A stretch of DNA of 64,000 nt, taken from Oidiodendron maius Zn (lineage: Eukaryota > Ascomycota > Leotiomycetes > Myxotrichaceae). Position numbers and translations under genes: made by a program. Position 1 is the stretch's first letter. Each line of letters starts with the position of its first letter. The stretch is from assembly GCA_000827325.1 (NCBI GenBank), contig KN832874.1, positions 2,216,721-2,280,720 on the forward strand, given 5' to 3'. Positions 4,939 to 40,872 of this stretch are shown here, piece after piece. Below the pieces are notes generated by a model. That model had not been told where the DNA came from, ran no database searches, and was given only the letters and a program-made list of their open reading frames with translations.

Positions 4939-6768
4939 TTATAACTTCTTCTCATATGTCTTTTGCTCAGTCCAACGTCTTCTTAATGTTTGTGCCGCGC
5001 TTTTTGGCCGCCGATCTCGAGTGAATATCCCCTTTTTGTTTCCATCTATGCGGAAAATAGTAGTAGGACATTGGAAATCGGCAAAATTCCAAACGTGTTC
5101 CCCTACAACACTATCAACCCGATCAAAGACTCGGTGATACATATCCAATAGGCGGCTTTGGTATTCCTCACTCCAAGGAACATCAAGAGTTGCATGCAAA
5201 CCCACCTGGGTATCTGCACCATATTCCGACATGATGATGGGGTTGCCATACTTTTTCTGCCAGCCTAAGAGGTCTTCTTCTAAGGCTTGCTCTGCCGTAT
5301 CGAGATCCGCGTTGTAAGCATACCAGCCATAATATCGATTCAGGCATAGAACATCGAACAAATCCGTAATTGTATCCTTTTCGACAGGAGCATGTATCAT
5401 GTTTGCGAAGCACACAGGGCGCGTAGGGTCTAGCTGGCGGTTCAAAGTCACAAGTGGTTCCATGTACTCTCGCACTCCGGGCTCAGCAGACGCAGGCTCG
5501 TTAGCAACAGCCCACATGACAACACATGGGTGATTCTTATCGCGAGCTATTAACTCTCGAATTGCCTGTGCATGTGCTGACTGCGTTTTATCGTTAATTG
5601 TATCTGGGGAGAATGTCAACGGGGACGATTTCGGGCTTGGTTTGACACCAAACACGCCCCCAACTATACCCAGATTGAGTCCCACTGCAGGGGTCTCATC
5701 AATCACAACGATACCATGTCGATCTGCGTACTCAAGGACCTCCTCGGCATATGGGTAGTGCGAGCATCTGAATGAGTTGGCCCCTGTCCAGCCCATCAAG
5801 TGGAAGTCGTGTATCATGTATGCATTGTCATGACCCTTGCCGCGCACTGGCGCATCTTCGTGCCTGCCAAATCCGGTGAAATAGAATGGCTTGTCATTAA
5901 TGAGGAATCGATTTCCAATCACTTTGACTGAACGCACTCCAACAGCCAACTGGTAAGAATCTAACACAATTCCGCTCCCTGGCGCAGCCATAATTTCTAC
6001 ACGGAGTTGATAGAGGTAGGCTGCACCGGGCTCCCAAAGATGGGCTGACTTGACCACTGCCCGATTCTTATGCCCTACGGTTTGGTAGATGAGACTGCCA
6101 ACCTCGTCAATCAAGGAAACCTGAACGCGATCCTCATCAATAGACTGACTCGTTTTGATTTCGAAATCAACGAACCCTGTGGTGCCATCAACATCAGTTT
6201 TAACTGTGATGTCATCCACAGCAACGGTGGGCACACTATAGAGCCATACTGAGCGGGCCAACCCAGAGTAATTGAAGAAGTCGTGCTGATAATATTGCTT
6301 CCTCTCACCATTTTGCCCTACCTCAACTCGTCCAGGGGGGATGGTGTGCCAAGTAAGTTCATTATTTACCAACACCGTGAGGCGAAATGGCTGTCCTGGT
6401 GCGACGAGATTGGTGATCTCTGCCTCGAACGGAGTATAGCCTCCAATATGCTCAACGACGAAATGTTCATCGACGTAGACACGACCTTGGTGAGTGGCTG
6501 CGTCTAGTCGTAGAAAGTATCGCTCTTGGGACCATCCGTGAGGTACAAACACTTGCCGTTGATAATAAACCCACCCAACATGACCGCGGATACTTTCCTG
6601 TACGAAAATATCATTGTAGCTGGCGGGAACAGGTGCTTGCAGTTTAGGTGGTATTACACCAGTCCAGATTCTCTCTTCATCGACGTCGGTTGTAGTTACT
6701 ACCGCAAAACTCCAAATGCCATCTAAAGACACAAGCTCCCTAGTGGAAGTTGCTTGAGGTTTAAGCAT
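4939..6768 (-). CDS. Beta-glucuronidase, glycoside hydrolase family 2 (bacterial UidA type)
   Basis: This intronless 609-residue protein has the three GH2 modules: a sugar-binding jelly roll (about 1-185), an immunoglobulin-like sandwich (about 186-280) and a TIM barrel (about 281-600). The acid/base Glu is in AVANEP (E424) and the nucleophile in IIMSEYGAD (E515). The NKK motif at 577-579 corresponds to the N-x-K pair that recognises the glucuronate carboxylate in E. coli GUS. This supports true beta-glucuronidase rather than beta-galactosidase activity. Length and C-terminal sequence (VVGEHVWNFADF, KKGIFTRDRRPKSAA) are very close to UidA. No signal peptide is seen, so it is probably intracellular. 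Fungal GH2 glucuronidases are known; the close bacterial likeness and absence of introns suggest transfer. Confidence 0.93.
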   Translation of the reverse strand: MLKPQATSTRELVSLDGIWSFAVVTTTDVDEERIWTGVIPPKLQAPVPASYNDIFVQESIRGHVGWVYYQRQVFVPHGWSQERYFLRLDAATHQGRVYVDEHFVVEHIGGYTPFEAEITNLVAPGQPFRLTVLVNNELTWHTIPPGRVEVGQNGERKQYYQHDFFNYSGLARSVWLYSVPTVAVDDITVKTDVDGTTGFVDFEIKTSQSIDEDRVQVSLIDEVGSLIYQTVGHKNRAVVKSAHLWEPGAAYLYQLRVEIMAAPGSGIVLDSYQLAVGVRSVKVIGNRFLINDKPFYFTGFGRHEDAPVRGKGHDNAYMIHDFHLMGWTGANSFRCSHYPYAEEVLEYADRHGIVVIDETPAVGLNLGIVGGVFGVKPSPKSSPLTFSPDTINDKTQSAHAQAIRELIARDKNHPCVVMWAVANEPASAEPGVREYMEPLVTLNRQLDPTRPVCFANMIHAPVEKDTITDLFDVLCLNRYYGWYAYNADLDTAEQALEEDLLGWQKKYGNPIIMSEYGADTQVGLHATLDVPWSEEYQSRLLDMYHRVFDRVDSVVGEHVWNFADFQCPTTIFRIDGNKKGIFTRDRRPKSAAQTLRRRWTEQKTYEKKL

Positions 6769-8772: not shown

Positions 8773-11700
8773 TTAAGCCCACTTAGAGCATATTACCAGC
8801 CTGCTTCCTTGGTATATATCAGCTGGCCAGCCTTGATAAGTAACTCCATCATCTGCAGAATCCCCAGCCATAATGAGCGTATGCTCTAACAGCGTCACAT
8901 CTTCACCCATTGAAGCTCCCGAAAGGAGTCGTGAGCCTGACCTCAGCACACTTCTATTCCCAACCTGCAAGTTATTTAGTGAGAACCTCCCTCTTGAGTT
9001 AACATGGCAGACAAGACTCGAGTCATCTGTAGTCACACGGTCTCCCAATGTCAAAAGATCTGGCTCGGTGAAAATTAAGCTTGGTCTTCCACCAGCAAAT
9101 AGTGCACAGTCTTTGCCAATGTTAGCCCCTAATGCCCGAAAATAGAGTACACAGAAGTGTGTTCCGGTGAGCATGCCTAAGACTCCGTTGCCGCCGAAGC
9201 ATTTCCTTCGTACTGCTTCTATTGTTAAAAAGAGCTGCCATCGCTGACAATAACTTGACTTATCCCAGTCATATCTCCCAGGCTTCCGCCGACCAAGAAG
9301 CACCCATTTAGCAACAACAACAATGCCAAGTGCAAGAGCGGATAGTGTAGTGTACATTGCTGATAGCATTGCGACTTCCAGGGCGTATATCTTCAGAGGT
9401 CGATACCAGTGAGGACGTAATTGATCGGTGCCGCTCACAAATTTCGATAGCACGATCGTGGTGATGGTGGTGGCGTTCCAATATAACGACGTAAAGATAG
9501 TGATGAATGTTGCATATAAAAATATGGAAATCTGACCAAAGACATAATATGGTGCTTTGCCTTCATAAAAGGCACGGCCAAATGGCGTGGTCGTACTGTC
9601 GATGTCGAAAATCTTCGCTGTCGAGTCAAATTTGGAAGAACTTGGTTCTGTGAGAGGAGGTATCGTATCAGAATATTCATTGTCTTCAGAAGACCGAATT
9701 GTCGGAGCCTGGCTAGAGAAATTCGATCTTGTAAGACAAACCGCACCCCCCCTTTTATTTCCAATCCATACACTTTCGGCAGCACAGTATTGGTTTCGTT
9801 TGATAAGGGCGCCGCTTCCTATGACTGAGCGCTCCCCCACCGTTGCTCCTGGGCCCACGACAACACGGTCAGCTATCATAGCGCCATTTTCGATGCGCAC
9901 TGGCTCAGTCCCAAAAGCATCAGTGGTGATGATGTGAGACCGAGACCCAAAAACAACATCGTCACCAATATCGATGAGGTCAAAATCCTGAATAGATGGC
10001 CCAGTCCCTGGCCAGTACACATGCTTACCTACCTTGCCTCCCAAAGCTCTCACTGCAATTGAAGTGAATTCATAGTGGGTACCAAACAGTTCTGTGATAC
10101 TCTTCAGACTACCATTAGGCAGCAATGCTGAGAGAAGATGCATCCTCAAGTTGTCTTTCTGGGCCATGTATTTCACTGCCAGTGGTCTCGCTGGTCCACA
10201 GAAAATATTAACCACTTTTTTGATGAGGACGATAACCCCAAACCACACAAAGGGCCGTACTGATGTATTGAGTGATAGAGCAAGATAGTGAAAAGCAATC
10301 CTACGAGGTGTTGCCCACCACGTAATGGCCGTTGCTACGCTATCATTGTCGAACTGTGTTTCCCCTATAACCATGCCTAAAAGTCCTCCCATCCACGGTA
10401 AAGACGATAGAAAAGCCACAAGTATCTGAATTGGGAAGATGCAAAAAAGGCGTAATAACATATGCGGTTTTAAAGGACAGCCGACTAGGTTAGAGTTATC
10501 CTCATCATCCATCTCATAGGAAGAGCTATTTGCCCCAATAAATGTATAGTCAGGCAAGATAGAGCCGGCCGCAACTTGGGATTTCAATCCGATGCTGGAG
10601 TTCTTTCCGACAATAATTTTGCCGAGGTACATCGAGGTATTTTGCTCCGCTGCAAATGGACGGCAAACACATCTATTGAGATGAACATTGTCTCCAATGT
10701 CGAGGAGATCGTACTCTCCCAAGGTTGTCCCTTTCTCGATGGTGACTCCCGTTCCAATTTTGGCACCAAGTAGCCGATAGTATAGTATTCTAGTGTAGTC
10801 GAAGTAGCCAAAGACGCCCTGGTGATCCAAGTTAGCCAAATTATAAGGCACTGCTCAAAAAGGAGAATGGTAACCACCTTGCCGCAAACAAGCAGAACCT
10901 TTTCAACAATCCACCATCTACTGTGGTACGGACCCCACATTGGATATATGCCTTCTCTATACCTTCCTATAACTATCCACTTAAACAGAATCCCAAAAAT
11001 AGGAGACACTATCTCCGTACCGGAACGGGCAATAAACATTGCACCGACAACAGCAACAAATTTCGCCGCAAGGTTCGGATCATGCCAGAGTTTTAAGATG
11101 GTGCCTAGAGCGTATAAAAGCGTAGTCCACTTAAACGCCATTTTCATTGGATAGACTAACATAATTGGTAGAATATTTATGAAGAGGACAAATGGATTGG
11201 TTGAACTGTACGTCTGCATGCACCCTAGGAGTGACTTTTTCCCATTAATGGCGTGTTTAGCATTTGCGTGAAGCATGCGATCGACTTGCTCACAGAGGTC
11301 GCAAACCCTACTAGTTCCAAAGAGCTGGTCCACGGGAATTCGAACTTGCATGTCGCGTCGTAGAATCGAGAGGAGCTGACCAGCGCTTAAGCTGTCACCT
11401 CCCATAGCAAAAAAATCAGAATCAGATGATATCTCCTCCAGTGGAATGCCGAGGACCTTAGAAAAGGCCAGACGAATGCACCGATCTGTGTCGGAGACCG
11501 GGGGAGACGAGTTCAAATTTTGGGAAGCTTTAAGTATTTCTTTCAGCGCTAGCTGGTCGATGATCCCAGATGGGTTTCGAGGGAAGATTTCGTCAATGTA
11601 TGTGATTTTGGAGGGAAGAAGGTACCCATCAAGTTCTCCTTTGAGACTCCTGGACAAACTCTCTATTACCTCTTGAAAGGAAAACTCTTCAGGTACCCTG

Positions 11701-14126
11701 CCTCGGGGCGCTACAATAACCTCTGGAGTACCATCGTGACGACCTGGCCCCACGTAAGCTTCTAGTGCGTCATCTAAGTTCTTCTCAACTGCTCTCAACA
11801 CCAAACTAAGGTCTGAAACACAAGGTCTCTTCGAAATTTTGATGCTCAACGCGCTGTTTTGAGGAGGACAGATCGCTTCGAAATGCCTTTGGGCGAGATT
11901 TTCTCTACCAGTAATAGGCCGTAAATCTAGACGCTCTGCGAACTTGATTCGGATGATTTTGTTGTTGCTTGTAGGGAGAGCCTCCATGTAGACAATAGTT
12001 AACGGCAATTTTGAGGCGTGGAGAACTGGCGTAAGAGCAGCGTTCAGCTCCCGAATATCAGGGCGAGGCTTTGTGCTTGAAGTTACAAGTGCAACACCTA
12101 CAGCTTCTTGCAATAATTCGTGTGGCACCGAAAATGCCATCACCTGTCTCACTCGCTGGAAGAGTGATGATTTGACGTCCTGGGAGGCAATAGTTATTGC
12201 TTCCTCAACTTCGAATGGCGAAATAATTTCTCCCCCACGGTTGATAATCTCTTTCCCTCTCCCTGTAAGATAGAGATATCCATCTTCGTCTAGTGATCCC
12301 AAATCACCAGTATCAAACCAACCATTGTGAGTAAAGCATGATCTGTCAATTTTTCCTCCTTTCAAATAGCCTGAAAACGTAGGGCCCCCTCTCACGCTGA
12401 TGCGGCCCACATGCCCAGCTGGTAGAGGATTGTCCGCATCATCCAGAATAGATATCTCTGGTCCACATCCTATGCCCGAAGTTCCAGGTCTATCAAGAGC
12501 GTAATCCAGTAGCGGGGTGGAAATTGGCATGCACTCTGTCATGCCGTAGCTTGGGAGGACATTGCATCTAAAAGTGTCTCGCAAGCGAACGGCTAGAGCA
12601 GGTAAAAGTCCGCCAGCCGCATTGCAGACCAATCGCAGATGACAACGAGACAACGAATCTGGACGGGTATTGCCTTCGGCTAGAATGCTCATGTGCATTG
12701 ATGGTGAGGCATAGTACCAGGTTCCACAACCACCATCTAAAATGTCCCAGAATACATTAGGGTCAAACCCCGCACAAAGAATTGTGGAGCCTCCAGAGAG
12801 AACTGGGGCAAAAAGATTCCTGACGAGGCCACCAATGTGATAGAAAGGCATCATATTCAGGCAAGTATCATCAGGTCCGAGGCCCCAGGACGTGATGACA
12901 CACTGCACTCCGGTGAGCAAACTGAAACAATCAATAGGGACAACTTTTTTGGTGCCGCTGGTGCCGCTGGTAAAGAGAAGGATGGAAATGTCATCTGCAG
13001 TGTTTGGTGTTGTCCTATAATTTGGTGGACATCGTGACATATCGTGGTCTTGGACTCGGAAAGTCATACCGCCTTGCTGTTTTTCAGCCACTAGTACGCG
13101 AATTCCAGATTCCGCAACCCATTGTTGTCTAAGTCCAAGACTCTCGATATCTGATTCCAAGGCCACTATGGCGTGGGGATTTGCAAACTCGACATCAGAT
13201 CGGAATTGCCGTGCCCCACCCGCTATATTCATAGGCGCGGCTGTATAATACGACGCAGTTGCAAGACACGCAAGACCAAGCAATGGCCCATTTGGGAGGG
13301 CCAGTACGATGACCGGCTTTCCACTTGTTGTATCACAGTGTACCGGAAGTGTGAAGTCTTTTATGAAAGAGGATAACTGTCGGTGACTCAGGGACCTCTG
13401 GGAAGTAGGATCTACTATGGCAGGGTGGTCGCTGTCGGGCAGAAATAGAGACGGCAGATTCCCAATACACCTTTTCACTTGACTGAGTGCATCTTGTACA
13501 AATGGCCTAGCATTCTCATCATGACCTGCTTTTATTGTTTCTGGCAAGGCAATCCATAACTGAGTATACCGCTGGAGGACCTTGAATGTAGATCGGGTGC
13601 TGTGGTATCGGGAGAGAACAAAAGCCAACGCCGTAAGTGATAGATACCCCGCATCGTCGGAAACTGGGATAGAGGTGAGAAGTTTTGAAAAAGCAGACTT
13701 GGACAGAGGTGGAGCTGCTAGTTTATATTGAGAGTTGGTGGCCCACGATGAGAAGGCGGTTCTTGTTTCTAAGGACGTCTGAAAGTTCTGAACAACTTCA
13801 AGAAAAGGCTGGCTACATGGCGGAGACATTGACAAAATTACCGAAGATCGGTAATAGGTTCTTATTAGACTTTGGTAGAGCCTACTTTGAGATAAAAGAG
13901 AGTAGTAGGCTAGTAGAAGAGAGGAGAGTAACATCTGAAGAACAGGAGCTGTAAAATTCACAAGTAAAAGTAATGATATAAATATGTTTGATCCTAAAAT
14001 TGGAGCCCCTAGTGACTGGCCTGACCCTGGTGAGGCATTGAGGCAGTGAGGCAGTGCGTGGCAGTGTATTTCGCTCGTATGTTTTATAGGCATAAAACCA
14101 CGGCGCGCCTCTAAGATTGAGAACAT
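8773..14126 (-). CDS. NRPS-like enzyme: adenylation - carrier protein - poly-lysine-synthetase-type membrane/beta-helix region
   Basis: Two exons, complement of 8773-10818 and 10878-14126, are joined by a 59-nt intron (AAG|GTGGTT...GCTAAC...CACCAG|GGC) and give about 1764 residues. Met 13829 (MSPPCSQPFLEVVQNFQ) is a plausible shorter start, giving 1665. The adenylation domain spans about 230-735: TSGTSGTKK (386-394), YGMTE (527-531), WFDTGDL (603-609), GRGKEIINRGGE (622-633). A carrier domain at about 880-950 has GGDSL, with Ser912 as the phosphopantetheine site. Membrane segments then alternate with three hexapeptide-repeat (left-handed beta-helix) domains, beginning GAKIGTGVTIEKGT, GGKVGKHVYWPGTG and GANIGKDCALFAGG. 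This matches the C-terminal 'NRPS terminal domain' of epsilon-poly-L-lysine synthetases. There is no condensation or thioesterase domain. The product is unknown. A homopolymer or amide made without condensation domains is an inference. Confidence 0.88.
10819..10877 (-). other. Intron in the NRPS-like gene that hides an apparent frameshift
   Basis: Read straight through, the gene seems broken here because the two long frames overlap. A 59-nt intron with donor GTGGTT, branch point GCTAAC and acceptor CACCAG restores one frame and gives VCGK followed by GVFGYFDYTRILYYRLLGAK, as expected between the transmembrane pair and the first beta-helix domain. Confidence 0.8.
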
Positions 14127-14293
14127 TGTACACTAGTAAATGTAAACAAAGACATGAGCAATTTTATTGATACAAGCAATTAGTGCTTGTCTTTTGTTTA
14201 ATATGTAACTTAACTTATATTGTAATGATAATGATGATGATGATGAACGAAGGCATATACAATTGAAAATCGTCCAATTTTAATGAGGAATAC

Positions 14294-33946: not shown

Positions 33947-36637
33947 GGAAAATAAATGCTGAGGCGTAGCGCTTTGTTTCATGCGATGGAAATTACATGT
34001 TACCGATAAACTTACTTGTTTCGCCAGGGTCAAAATCGAACGAGTAGAGTGAAGCATAAGATACTCTCTTGGTGTGGATAGGTGAACAAGACAGCCAGAA
34101 GCTTTGAGCTCCCTGCAGCTCCGATCCTTTCTCCCAGATCTATAGCCTGGTTCCAAGATGTTTGATTCGTGTCGGGCCTTTCTTGAGGATGATCTTCATT
34201 TGCTCGTAAAGAGCCTAGTGTAATGTGTTTTCCGTAACGCCCAAGAAACTTGCGCCTAATCCGCAATAAAGTCCTTTGATCCCTTCCCGTCGAACAACCT
34301 GCACCATGCAATCGAATGCATCTTTATACCTGCGGCCTGTTTATAACCTTTAGTTAATATAGTATTAACTTATTACTAGAAGCTTTATATAAATCTTGAA
34401 CTATATCTCTAGAAATATCTAGCTATATCTTAGAGGATTTAGAAAGCTAATAAGTATAGTTTAATTGCTTCCTCTTTAAAGGTTATTTAAAGTTAATGCT
34501 TAACTTCTATTCTTTAAAGCATTAAACTTTTAAGTTCAGGATTATTTATTAAATAATTAACGATTTCCTAGCTAAGATATTATACTATAGGTAATACCTT
34601 TATATATAAATCCTATATAAGTATTAAGAACTATAATTAATAATTAGCTTAATTAAGTAAGTAGTAAAATAGCCTTCTACTTACCTTTAACTAAGGCTAG
34701 ATATCCTTTAAAGAGTCCGAAGATATAGTAGAGACAAATTGTCTTAATAGACATATAGGGCCTTTAACTACCTTGCTAGAGTTAACAGTCTTGTCTTGCT
34801 AAGAGTGACTTGATATGTCTGGCTGGACGTCTATTGTGTGAGCGATGTCTAACCAAAATTCAGCAGACGAGTCGTGCATGTCTATATTTCATGTTCTGCA
34901 CAAGTGAAGGTTGTGCTTGAACTGATAAGAATGGTTGAGGGATGGCCACTGGGGACCGCCTGACCTTATGTATTCAAGCTCCTTGGTCGGTGGGGTTGGA
35001 TGCCGCATCAATTTGCCTTTAGCTGCATCCTGGACGGGTGTTGTAGCCCAGCCTCTCAAGGCATCCCGGACATGATGCATTCCGTTGGGTGGACGCGACG
35101 GGGCTGTCCAATGCCCAAACCCCCCTGAAGACAATGCTCTGTTTGATGCAAGGATGCATGATGCTGGGCATCTGCTGCGCCTTGAAGGAGATTGTATGCT
35201 GTCATTCGTTCTTTCCTGTCATGATCAGAAGGCAGAAGTGTGGGTTCTGGTCCGTGATCATGCTGGTCGAATCAGCTGAGGCTACCAGACACCCCTGTCG
35301 TTGTCAGATAACCATAGATGGCGTTGGATATGCGGGGCTGAGAGACGTGGGTTCCGTTGGGGTGATGGCCGCGAGACCCTACGACAAAAAAGGTACTGAA
35401 TGCAAGGACCATTTCGATCCTCTAGGCGGCTGAAATGCACAGCGAAGACCTGTCTGTTCCGTTTCTCACTGCTGACCCCAAAACCACGCAGGTTTATAGC
35501 CTGGGGATTCCAATAATGTTTGTTTCTGGGTCTCCTAGAAGTCTCGTCTTGTGTGTGAACGAAGGACTAGAAAGAATAGTGTACCTTTCGATCGTCCAGC
35601 CTCTTCCCAATCGGCCAACTCTTGGATGAGCTTGGGTATCGTGCAAAAGCATGCGCCTGGGCTCGATTGCTACCATGCGCAGTCCTGATATAACCGCCCA
35701 GACCTCTCTCACAGCTCTTCGTCGCGACCACCAAACTCCTTTTCTTGGCCATCGCCGTCTCATGCAGGTGGTATCAGCTGAGATTCCGCCAACCTGTGGT
35801 CATTTGCCCGAGGTCTAAACCACTCCTAGTGACCACTTCCTGAATTGACAGGCGCCTTCCATTCCGTAATGTCCGCAAGTTGGCCCTGCGGAAACACAAA
35901 TTCGCCCCAAAGTTTGCCGTCCCTGCTTAGGATTCGTGCTCACACCACCCACCAGCTTCATACACGTTGGCATTCTACCAATGATGGGAGAGAAGGTTGA
36001 CAGCCACCATGCCCTCTCTTACCAACAGAGTTATCAGATTCAAACCCAGGCACTTGACAAGTATTGGTCCTCCTAGTGCTGTAAAGGCCACGCCCGTATC
36101 TCTTGGGTATCCCTCCCCTCTCCTTTCAGAAAGCATGCCTGAGCCACCGGAACCCACCATAATATGCTGTCACCCTTGCGTACGCATACTAGTGTGCCAT
36201 CAGCATTCGTGGCAGTAGGCGCTCGCAATCTATTCAGCTGAGCTTCCCAGCATGCCCTGTTGGTATGCTTCTCGATCTGCTGAACTTTTATCGTGCCCAT
36301 CGTCCGTCGATCGCGTCGAGATAATCATAGTCGCGACCTGATTATAGAGATTAGTCGTGACCTCAGAATATCGTCGATCATGAGCTCCGAAATATCCTTT
36401 TTTCCAGCTTGGCAAGAGGTTTTGTGACGATGATGAACAAGCGTCACGGGATATTTGATCGGCGTGTGACCAAGGCATCAGTTCGCTTCGCTCCAGGGTA
36501 CCCTACGGAGGTACATTCGACCTTTCAAACCTTCACCTCCCTCTGTCCCCACTCAGTCACTCTGGCTCCGGCTCCTCACCTGCCCGCGTCTGTATACCGA
36601 CAGTGCCCTCCTCTCTCTCCAATCAACCAGCCGCTCT
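33947..36637. other. Long gene-poor stretch with an AT-rich block
   Basis: At 34340-34780 the DNA is strongly AT- and TpA-rich (TTAATATAGTATTAACTTATTACTAG) and looks like mutated repeat DNA. The remaining 34.8-36.6 kb has many short opposed open frames but no recognisable domain, tRNA or repeat. The 3' flank of the MerB gene lies at its right end. Confidence 0.45.
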
Positions 36638-37489
36638 TCAATTGGCCGCAAGGAGCCTTGACCATATCTCCACGGCGACAGGTCTGAGATTTCCAACTGA
36701 TACGCAAGAGCCAGTAACCCCACTTGCCTCACGCCATGCTTCGGCTGATTGTGTAGAAGTGAAGAAATTAACGTTAGGACACCAGTCTTCACAAATGGCA
36801 TTATGGCTTTGTACGTCACATAGAAAGACAAAGTGCTTATCGTCCTCAGAAATGCCATCAACGAATTCCAAGAGAATATTTTCGCCGCTATAGGGATCCT
36901 TGGAGTGGGATGCTCCGGACGCCCGTAAGAATCCAAAGATCCCAATCACATCAAGTGCGCACCAGGCCCAGAGTTTTGAGCCGTCGATGGATAACCCGTG
37001 CATCGTCGGACGCAAGCTCAATCCAAGAGCGCCCACAATACAGCCATCGGGATCCAGTTGAATGTGACCACACCTCTGCAAATCCTCGATACTGCTCGTG
37101 ATCCCGGCATCCACCCCTGCGGCGAGATGATCTACGGGAACCGGCCTGGCTGTTTGCAAAAGAATGCGGAAAGCGGATGCTTGAAGCTGTCTGGTGAGCA
37201 AGGACCCACAGTTGAGCACCGACAGACCTCGAAGAGCAGCTAGAATCTGCTCTTCGGTGGGCAGGTCAAATCGACACGACACTTGGTTGCTTAGCTCTGA
37301 CGAGCGTCCCGTAACATCGAACCCGTCAATGAGGATGGTTGGAGAGCCATAGTCGCCAACGGTATCCTCGACGATATAATTAATATGGGTTTTGGCGAGA
37401 CTATTCTTCAGTACGCTGCGTGCCGATTCAACTAGCGGACAATCAGGGATCGAGAGGAGCCGGATTCGAAGGGGCTTGCTTTGAGCCAT
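36638..37489 (-). CDS. merB: Organomercurial (alkylmercury) lyase with thioredoxin-like N-terminal domain
   Basis: This intronless 283-residue protein has a C-terminal half (about 105-283) that is unmistakably MerB. LWAWCALDVIG corresponds to the catalytic Cys96/Asp99 segment of E. coli R831 MerB (here C177 and D180). WCPNVNFFTSTQSAEAW corresponds to the Cys159 segment (here C237). All three catalytic residues are present. Residues 1-88 form a thioredoxin-like domain (IPDCPLVESARSVL, GSPTILIDGFDVTG, SCRFDLPTEEQILAAL) of the kind fused to MerB in actinobacteria; it has one Cys and no CxxC. The enzyme splits the carbon-mercury bond, releasing Hg(II) and a hydrocarbon, in the cytosol. No mercuric reductase is seen in this window. 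The absence of introns and bacterial architecture point to horizontal acquisition. Confidence 0.93.
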   Translation of the reverse strand: MAQSKPLRIRLLSIPDCPLVESARSVLKNSLAKTHINYIVEDTVGDYGSPTILIDGFDVTGRSSELSNQVSCRFDLPTEEQILAALRGLSVLNCGSLLTRQLQASAFRILLQTARPVPVDHLAAGVDAGITSSIEDLQRCGHIQLDPDGCIVGALGLSLRPTMHGLSIDGSKLWAWCALDVIGIFGFLRASGASHSKDPYSGENILLEFVDGISEDDKHFVFLCDVQSHNAICEDWCPNVNFFTSTQSAEAWREASGVTGSCVSVGNLRPVAVEIWSRLLAAN

Positions 37490-37833
37490 CGTTAATCTAG
37501 ATGAATGAGGTTTGACGGGCTGATTGTCTTAGGTGGCCTTGCACGTGATCGCTGCCTTAATTTCACCTAGCAGTTCCCAGCCCGGCTTTATTTTCCCGAT
37601 CGTAGCTACAGGTCCCATTGTCCCGTTCCCTCACTTACCCACTTCCCATCTATTATTCCCTCCATTATCACCATGGTCTCCCCCAACGGCCCATAGTAGG
37701 GAATCAATATGTGTCGCGGCCTAGCACACTCCCGCTGTCGAGCAGGCGGTGTCTCGCCTTCATCTCGACGACTCCTGTATTGCTTGCGTTACATCTAATC
37801 GAACTCCCTCACTGTTGTCATGGAGCCGGCGAC

Positions 37834-38335
37834 ATGAGCGATGACCTCGCGATCACTGCCAGCATTCAATCGGGGAACGTACCTCCTTCCATCAGTGCCA
37901 ATATCTGGCGGAGAGTCGCGACCGTCCAGCCAGGATAGCCATCATCTTTGTCGGAGCGCTCACAATCGTCACAGTCTTGCTGCGGGTTTATCTCACGATG
38001 GAGCGTGAGCCGTCTGGGCGTCGATGATGCATTTGCGGGCTTCTCTATGGTACGCAGCCCGAACTCCCCTGCATACTTAGGATACGGCTAATGTGGACCT
38101 AGCTCCTTCAAGTCGCCTTCATTGCTCTCGCCGGATTCCTCATCGACCTTGGAACGGGAAGACATCTCCAGTACATCGAATATGTGCTCACGCCAAGCCA
38201 AACCGAGAAGAGCGAAGTGTTGAACTTCTCCGCACACCTCATCTATACGACCGCTTTGTTCGTCTGCCGACTGTCCGGCCTCGCCTTTTATCGTCGGCTG
38301 TGCGAGCTCCATGAGACTCTCGAACTAGACGATAT
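37834..38335 (+). pseudogene. SAT4/rhodopsin-domain integral membrane protein, relic
   Basis: The frame begins MSDDLAITASIQSGNVPPSI and continues after a one-base shift with ARIAIIFVGALTIVTVLLRV. After further shifts it reads LGVDDAFAGFSM and LQVAFIALAGFLIDLGTGRH, then LTPSQTEKSEVLNFSAHLIY and LFVCRLSGLAFYRRLCEL. This is the fungal rhodopsin/SAT4 domain through its third or fourth helix. Several frameshifts and stops break it, and the rest of the domain is replaced at about 38336 by pogo-transposase sequence. Confidence 0.6.
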
Positions 38336-38625: not shown

Positions 38626-40872
38626 CTACACAGCCAAAGGTGGAAGTTCCATTTGGTTTCTACTCGGCTGGCATCCTCAAAGACGTCATGTGACCATGTC
38701 CATGTGACTAATTCTAAGCCTATCACACCTGACTTGGCATTGTCCACAGCAATGCCATTCACGTCTTGCCCAATCCAACAAGCACCAACAGCGCGATGTT
38801 CATTACTGCAATGATCAGCCATATTAGCACTGCAGAAATAGCGGTAATCCAATGATTTCTCATCTTCACACTGCTACCATCCAATGTGCCGACGGTTTAT
38901 GTATTTGTCGCGGCAAGTGATGTAAATCAACGGCGCAGACAAAAACGGCAGGATGACACTCAATGCAGTCTAAGTGCCATTAAGCGCGGTACTCAAGCCA
39001 TCCCGACCCACTGCAGCAGCAATGATGATGTCGGCAATGTTCAGGGGTGTTTGAGCAACCAGCAATGGAATAGGGAGTCCGGAGGTTGTAGGATGAGGTG
39101 TAGACTGAGTGGCTATCTCAGATAATTGGACGAGAGGAGGAAAGGCTGGGAGCTTCTCAATAACGCAGAAATGCCGAAATTTGTGCGCATTTTTGGAGCT
39201 GCAGAGGAAACCACGCAGACCGCTTACCAAATAGTCTCACCCACTTGGTGAGCTCGACGGCCGTGGTGCAGTCCCATGCATGCTCCAGGAAGACAGGTCA
39301 GGTAGGCGATGTTTTTGGCAGATACGTTTTTGGCAGATAGGATTCTGGCAGGTACGATTTCGGCAGGCACGTTTTCGGCAGTTACGCCATCGCGTCAAGG
39401 TCCAGTGACAAATTCGCCGGGGTCTGCTCAGTTGGCGCACTCACAAGCATTTTCATATGCTCTGGCGGGTGCTCGGGGTTTCAGGGCTCAGAACTCACTA
39501 TCTTAAGTCATCAAGTGACGTGGCATCACTGCCTCAAATCAGGTACGGGTGTGGTTGTAAAATGAGCTTTCACCAGGCGCTAAGTAAAGCCGAGCCCAAT
39601 TTTGTGGAGTTTCACGATTACCGGTTTCCACCCGTGAAATTTTATACGCCTTAGCCGTATAATATATAAAGTTCTCTTTATGCTACAATTAAATAATTGT
39701 TATATATCCTGCTAAAATTTTGGGTTGTACAAAGGTTATTGAGGAAGAAAATAGAAATATTTAGATCCGTAAGAGTTTCGGTATGCAGCGCTTATTGCTC
39801 AATTAATTAGCTAATTAACAAGATCTAAAGGAGAGAACGTACAGTAAAGGCAGGGAGCACACTACGTTAGGTACGAAGCTGAATAGCCATAAATGTGTCC
39901 TCACTTTGTTCGTAGGGATTTTTATGACTTTCGCTTCGCAGGGATGGGGGTTAGCCCGCAGAACCGCTTCGGGTAAGACGAAAACGAGCGACCTGATTTT
40001 GGACCACAGAAACCCCTATCCAGTCCACGTTGAGTTTAACTTTTTTGTTGCACATCGTGGTCGCGTCACTAAATTAGCCACCCCCGGCCATCGCGTCGTT
40101 CGCGCTGATGCACACGATTAGTCTGCATGCGGTAAAGGACCACACCGAGTCAAATTTTACAGTGCTTTGGTTCCGGCTCCTCATTAGCCTGCATCCGGAT
40201 ACCGACTGTGTCCTCCTGCGGCAGAGGTCTCTGCACGCTCGTATCTCTTTGGCGCCTCCTCGGTCAGCGTCCGTACGTGGACACATCGTCATGAGTCCTG
40301 GCTCTATCAGCTTACCGGTACTGATTGTTAAGTTATGATTCCCGAGTTTGGAACCCCGGCACTGGGTAGATGGCCTACTACTTGCTGCATTTTCTTTGCG
40401 CTCCAAAGATAATTAGAAGAGAAATAGGTTTACTCCACACCCCTTCCAGACTTGCAACTAGTAAAAATCACCTAAAGCTGTCCTTCCAATTGTATTAGTT
40501 GGTCTAAAGAACTAAGACAAGTCCTTCTGCAGTAAATCCCGTAGATACACAGAAGTTGTTATATCTCGCGTTTTCGAAACTTTTCGGACTCATTTCTGGC
40601 TTTACGAAAATCGTCGGAACTTTTGCAGTTCATGATCACTGCAGGCGAATTTTAATGGCTGGACCTTGAAGCCCTTAGGCGTGCGGCCAATATTAATGCC
40701 ATACTGTATTTAAGGATGGCCTTGGCCATTGGGCTTTATATCGGGGTGGTGTTGCGTGTTGAAAATTGGGGTGATGGTTCGTACAGTGGTGGGCAGCGCT
40801 GCACTACAGGGTGGTGAATTCCTTACGGGCACAGCTGCCGTTGCGCTTCTATTCTTGCCTCGACTCAGGCGG
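38626..40872. other. Gene-poor stretch; one short tandem repeat
   Basis: Besides the 15-bp repeat at 39311-39386 I find no credible gene. A minus-strand frame at 38502-38852 and others up to 110 codons have no recognisable motifs. The right end is the 3' flank of the fusion transporter gene. Confidence 0.4.
39311..39386. repeat. 15-bp tandem repeat, five units
   Basis: Five units related to TTTTTGGCAGATACG follow one another without gaps. The unit is five codons long; the plus strand reads FLADT, FLADR, ILAGT, ISAGT, FSAVT, resembling a pentapeptide-repeat pattern. No start, domain or length supports a gene, so it may be a relic of a pentapeptide-repeat gene or a simple minisatellite. Confidence 0.7.

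Follow-up and report, generated by a model that had tools for sequence, protein, structure and literature searches.

What does a MerB-type organomercurial lyase with an additional thioredoxin-like domain do in a fungus, and where would the released mercury go? This question is raised by a gene in the 64,000-nucleotide stretch of the Oidiodendron maius Zn genome analysed here (the window), which ends ~35 kb short of the end of its contig (C5). The gene is a single open reading frame of 283 amino acids on the minus strand (36638-37489) with an ATG start, and the corresponding methionine also opens the relative P0014 (87% identity over 75%). Because the frame is uninterrupted, the absence of introns noted in the first-pass annotation was confirmed. 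We propose that the protein is a 117alt variant of the MerB-type organomercurial lyases, likely of bacterial ancestry, in which a thiol domain in front of the lyase would take over Hg(II) through C17 and C72. We give this reading as a whole a probability of about 0.55.

The features used below are listed by position in the window. "Fungal-type" proteins are those that have a recognisable lyase together with the N-domain or a part of it; this definition excludes P0087-P0090 and the truncated P0063. The set of 60 consists mostly of metagenome proteins, whose fungal origin was inferred from similarity.

36638..37489, minus strand: intronless coding sequence, 283 amino acids, complete MerB-type lyase with a thioredoxin-like domain fused to its N-terminus
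37217..37480, minus strand: thioredoxin-fold domain, residues 4-91, which matches the DF (seleno)protein family weakly
36641..37252, minus strand: complete MerB-type lyase, residues 80-283 (N-terminal helical part and core)
37439..37441, minus strand: codon of Cys17 (PDCP), present in 21/21 fungal-type and 4/4 bacterial-type two-domain proteins
37274..37276, minus strand: codon of Cys72 (SCRFDLP), present in 21/21 fungal-type and 4/4 bacterial-type two-domain proteins
36959..36961, minus strand: codon of Cys177, equivalent to MerB C96; Cys in 58/60 fungal-type proteins
36950..36952, minus strand: codon of Asp180, equivalent to MerB D99; Asp in 60/60 fungal-type proteins
36896..36898, minus strand: codon of Asp198, at the MerB C117 position by alignment (117alt signature); D 53, E 5, G 1 and V 1 of 60
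36779..36781, minus strand: codon of Cys237, equivalent to MerB C159; Cys in 58/60 fungal-type proteins
34370..36513, no strand: downstream of the gene, degenerate and present in several copies, which lie on contigs C30, C44 and C31 at 73-79% identity (92% for a 34-base piece)
36530-36612: degenerate multi-copy stretch
37695..38312, no strand: upstream of the gene, a multi-copy stretch that is 69-88% identical to pieces from several contigs
39200..39923, no strand: further multi-copy stretches, 66-90% identity

A MerB-type lyase with an acidic residue at position 117

The lyase part scored 62.9 bits against the Pfam MerB model (PF03243; gathering score 27). When the sequences of solved structures were searched at E values up to 1, only MerB and MerB2 chains were obtained (5/5 distinct sequences). 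The catalytic residues C96, D99 and C159 of MerB align with C177, D180 and C237, and the predicted fold is that of MerB over the whole lyase chain. Thus, the catalytic triad that the first-pass annotation had reported is present. Judging from this alignment, the protein probably cleaves the Hg-C bond as MerB does: C177 and C237 would bind the organomercurial, and D180 would, by homology, protonate the leaving carbon.

At one position, the protein departs from canonical MerB. The sequence is S-K-D-P-Y-S-G-E here versus S-R-C-P-T-T-G-E in Acinetobacter MerB, and Asp198 takes the place of C117. Position 117 is acidic in 58 of the 60 fungal-type proteins. Furthermore, the cut-offs of both NCBIfam MerB models were missed (83.4 of 193 bits for NF009710 and 78.4 of 200 bits for NF033555). 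According to the available text of a survey of prokaryotes (Christakis et al. 2021; PMC8261052), the MerB signature also demands C117, and proteins which possess the triad and a residue other than Cys at 117 are MerB-like 117alt variants; there, the authors state that they know of no activity test of such variants. Because C117 is missing and the NCBIfam cut-offs were not reached, we file the protein, which has the triad and a non-Cys residue at 117, as a 117alt MerB-like protein and not as a canonical MerB. Therefore, the description "complete MerB" holds for the triad, the fold and the Pfam family but does not extend to C117 or to the NCBIfam models. This classing does not argue against a MerB-like working of the protein. 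Separately, we observed a protein of 422 amino acids (P0093) with two MerB lyase domains in tandem, which as a whole passes the NF009710 cut-off (194.6 of 193 bits); neither of its lyase domains has Cys at position 117.

The lack of C117 and the low NCBIfam scores might also mean that the substrate is something else, namely an organoarsenical or another organometal, or that the protein only binds metal and is no mercury enzyme in vivo. Weak matches to the model of the organometallic lyase SaoL point in the same direction, at 13.5 of 140 bits for the window protein (NF040728; below cut-off). However, the full triad is kept in 57/60 fungal-type proteins, and a fungal methylmercury demethylase has been published, as described in the available text of the review PMC13161390. 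The remaining evidence on this alternative comes from bacterial gene clusters and is given below.

Relatives, ancestry and surroundings of the gene

Named relatives were found in seven genera: Tricladium, Talaromyces, Beauveria, Zarea, Lipomyces, Glutinoglossum and Ophidiomyces (the Tricladium and Zarea entries are without the start of the N-domain). The exceptions to the complete triad are P0025, P0026 and P0046. These proteins have lost one or both catalytic cysteines and have kept the N-domain; P0046 has Ser at both sites. A phage search found no relative, and 1 of 25 matches in a pattern scan of genome contigs encoded one.

We constructed a lyase tree from 68 of 132 lyase domains, in which the midpoint root serves for drawing only. 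In this tree, 26 fungal-type rows split off as one side of a branch (support 100/99), and the Beauveria protein P0045 falls inside this fungal clade. The neighbours are six single-domain proteins taken as bacterial (support 98/92), and further MerB-like proteins, of which many come from bacterial records, make up the wider tree. The phylogeny proposed as a check thus places the fungal-type lyases among MerB-like proteins. The tree fits an acquisition from bacteria, which is the likely origin and has been published for the demethylase Mmd of Metarhizium (available text of PMC13161390), the fungal precedent named in the first-pass annotation.

Four bacterial-type proteins (P0087-P0090; P0088 and P0089 come from MAGs named as Actinobacteria) have the same two domains, and their N-domains share a mean identity of 49% with the fungal ones. 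A single clade of these four and the fungal-type proteins was rejected in the lyase tree (p-AU 0.0138), for a group that was defined by the trait but tested after the tree had been seen. In the N-domain tree, the fungal-type, bacterial-type two-domain and actinobacterial stand-alone domains come together, apart from a type found in Streptomyces and Gordonia; this tree has only 100 columns, the Streptomyces/Gordonia type was set as its outgroup, and it carries a warning of long branches meeting. Because P0087-P0090 stand apart in the lyase tree although their N-domains are alike, the fusion may be ancestral and have been lost in the sister group, or it may have been made repeatedly.

Could the gene be a horizontally acquired remnant, which is decaying and has no present function? 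It is a single-copy island between degenerate multi-copy stretches with 66-92% identity to other contigs, and no named transposon was recognised in the flanking stretches (34370-36513, 36530-36612, 37695-38312 and 39200-39923). In addition, P0014, the relative closest in sequence, is a truncated protein with Tyr where D180 would be, which suggests that the gene is decaying in a related organism or that the record is partial. Against this, the frame is open, the triad and the N-domain are intact and the family is conserved. Moreover, the GC3 value of 0.525 lies within the range of eleven other open reading frames in the window (0.45-0.59), so nothing in the base composition points to a recent arrival. 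We regard decay as very improbable.

The wider neighbours with Pfam matches encode GH2, GH28 and GH3 enzymes, MFS transporters, a P450, an SDR and Zn-cluster regulators, and weak matches are of the BNR and GDSL types. For a neighbouring GH2 gene, the best hit with a name is from Cylindrodendrum (72%). Elsewhere in the window (8776-14132, minus strand), an open reading frame with adenylation and carrier domains overlaps a hexapeptide-repeat frame, which scored 149.9 of 423.1 bits against the Pls/PosA model for an NRPS terminal domain (TIGR02353).

The N-terminal thiol domain and the fate of Hg(II)

According to the first-pass annotation, the two-domain layout was retained from bacterial MerB. 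This claim has to be abandoned, because the layout is not general to bacterial MerB: MerB structures align to residues ~80-283 only, and a thioredoxin-like domain as standard MerB architecture was rejected. The N-domain is nevertheless the most conserved region among 21 fungal-type proteins (mean pairwise identity 60%, versus 52% in the MerB core and 33% in the region between them). While C17 and C72 are invariant in the two-domain proteins, C177 and C237 are found in 20/21 fungal-type and 4/4 bacterial-type ones, and any other cysteine occurs in at most 16/21 fungal-type proteins. The domain shows the pattern Cys-Pro...S-P-T...C-R (C17-P18, S49-P50-T51 and C72-R73), which was set in this analysis without a published definition and also struck one unrelated frame (in L051). 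The match to the DF family model NF049942 is below cut-off (21.1 of 70 bits, E 2.3e-4). Because this model also gives sub-cut-off matches in 2/14 control genomes, the weak match may signify nothing beyond a thioredoxin-like protein.

The predicted fold of the domain is indeed thioredoxin-like, with a Cys directly preceding the first helix and the proline in SPT, and its distant relatives are named (seleno)proteins. These features would suit a redox partner of the same lyase, which keeps the active-site cysteines reduced or strips thiols such as glutathione off the organomercurial. A reductant or exchanger of substrate thiols is the main rival to a mercury relay. In contrast to a CxxC motif, however, the CPxx motif has a single Cys. 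Furthermore, MerB itself works with free thiols, and stand-alone copies of the N-domain occur in metal(loid) gene clusters. We therefore consider a redox role rather unlikely.

In the relay that we favour, Hg(II) on C177 and C237 would pass to the N-domain pair C17/C72, which would hand it on to glutathione, cellular reductases or cellular stores. Direct dithiol-to-dithiol hand-over would need two cysteine pairs, one per domain, and the conserved pairs C17/C72 and C177/C237 would match this arrangement. In other words, the N-domain would substitute for MerA in pulling Hg(II) off the lyase and thereby spare the need for MerA. Taken by itself, we rate this relay at slightly less than an even chance.

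No MerA gene lies beside the lyase gene, as had been noted. Across the draft assembly (45.9 Mb, 58 contigs), an exon-wise search gave nine matches to the MerA model TIGR02053, none of them above cut-off among the best 8 of 36 candidates scored (best, 304 of 454 bits). The top match (L003) scored higher against the FAD-oxidoreductase, RclA and lipoamide-dehydrogenase models, all below cut-off. A terminal Cys pair is a mark of MerA, and the L003 frame ends without one. Two other matches (L004 and L005) pass a glutathione reductase cut-off. For MerB, two matches were obtained in the assembly, the window gene and, on contig C1, a divergent fragment. This fragment (L001; G000:C1:1109714-1109995, minus strand) is apparently split by an intron and has the motif CAWCAFG; the equivalent of D99 is missing, a Cys is kept in the C159 region and neither of the two pieces matched an NCBIfam model at 1e-3. 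The function could also be carried by this second MerB-like locus or by a general reductase.

We surveyed 396 genomes from the phylum of an Actinomycetes MAG for the DF family and MerB. NF049942 matches were found in 105 genomes (at least one above cut-off in 54), and MerB in 48, at 64 merged places. A DF match lay within 1 kb of 9/64 MerB places, in 7/48 MerB genomes, where random placement expects 0.04; the count was made over 27 listed DF places, in the 22 genomes that have both. The other 55 MerB places are without a DF match within 1 kb. Eight of the nine neighbours are on the same strand and six are above the DF cut-off. The three weaker ones could be other thioredoxin-like proteins, given the sub-cut-off matches in control genomes; one of them (L091) is fused in frame with a lyase bearing the C/D/C triad. 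In genome G151, the fungal type of N-domain is encoded by a stand-alone gene directly upstream of a MerB-like frame, and this locus is outside the count because NF049942 missed it. Some DF matches read through one in-frame TGA, as selenoprotein genes would (for example, L071, L074 and L077).

Plasmids of Mycobacterium intracellulare and Mycolicibacterium vanbaalenii also carry stand-alone N-domains, next to the gene for a heavy-metal P-type ATPase and in clusters which include ArsC and a phosphatase-family gene. These two N-domain genes (L054 and L055, about 6000-6290) are absent from the incomplete gene table of PLSDB, and another genome encodes the same protein (L046). In two genomes, stand-alone N-domains are clustered with arsenic genes that were named by eye from translations. 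From these pairings and clusters, the N-domain keeps company with MerB and metal(loid) resistance genes. The annotated arsenic genes, together with the by-eye cases, are a further point for a substrate other than organomercurials. On the other side, an annotated merA lies ~1.7 kb from a relative encoded on a Nocardioides plasmid, but that relative keeps C117 and is not among the domains used for the lyase tree. Together with the triad and the fungal precedent, this makes a different substrate quite unlikely in our view. Two hypothetical genes upstream of the Nocardioides merB were considered as stand-alone N-domains and rejected, as they gave no match.

Because DF associates with MerB in bacteria, we suggest that Hg(II) is first handled within the protein. 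The route elsewhere in the genome that had been proposed earlier would then not be the only one, and it may still apply to later steps. As a tentative and rather doubtful generalisation, thiol/selenol domains of the DF type could be a general MerA-independent partner of MerB, a dedicated acceptor which takes Hg(II) directly off the lyase. Such a partner would adjoin MerB or have been fused to it several times in actinobacteria, and the single polypeptide of ascomycetes would be a eukaryotic single-chain enzyme for organomercurial cleavage and capture.

Comparison with known systems

In the available text of PMC8261052, MerA is absent from 906/1795 MerB-encoding genomes, and continued MerB catalysis in them is posed as a question. 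A conserved fused thiol domain, which recurs beside MerB in bacteria, is a testable candidate for MerB turnover without MerA: it may take the freed mercury and could explain function without the usual bacterial partner. As the family spans seven named genera, the ability to cleave organomercurials may extend to ascomycetes other than Metarhizium, which is relevant to mercury cycling and to bioremediation with fungi.

A fungal MerB-type demethylase is already known. It is Mmd of Metarhizium robertsii (Wu et al. 2022, via the available text of PMC13161390), for which a bacterial origin has been published. What appears to be new is the group of ascomycete 117alt lyases with an acidic residue at 117 and a fused thioredoxin-fold domain that has two invariant cysteines and has changed less than the lyase, together with the recurrent DF-MerB pairing in bacteria. 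A literature search, mostly without subscription papers, returned nothing relevant by title on a thioredoxin domain with MerB.

Compared with MerB (PDB 3f0o/3f2g; MerB2, 5c17), the window protein shares the complete fold, the equivalents of C96, D99 and C159 and PF03243. It differs in Asp198 and in the extra N-terminal domain, and its gene has no surrounding mer operon and no MerA match above cut-off in the genome. The fused proteins on Streptomyces and Gordonia plasmids (L012, L013 and L015; alkylmercury lyase family), which lie beside MerR-type regulators, likewise carry a DF/thioredoxin-like domain before a MerB-type lyase. However, their identity to the window protein is 24-26% and they form a separate branch in both trees. 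They have an N-domain of the D-P-F or D-L-F type and the lyase motif MCAIDA or MCAVDA; L013 scored 43 of 70 bits against NF049942, and L012 and L015 were compared with an N-domain profile built in this analysis.

The DF-MerB pairing recalls, by analogy, the SAO system (Haft and Gwadz 2023, via the available text of PMC13188914), in which the MerB-like lyase SaoL is encoded in one operon with the thioredoxin-like selenoprotein SaoT. In SAO, however, the selenoproteins are separate and parts of an ABC transporter are encoded alongside. The class in which we file the protein is that of the 117alt variants, which, in the available text of PMC8261052, share the triad and the non-Cys residue at 117 and include many genomes without MerA. 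That survey covers prokaryotes, and its available text names no fused N-domain such as that of the window protein.
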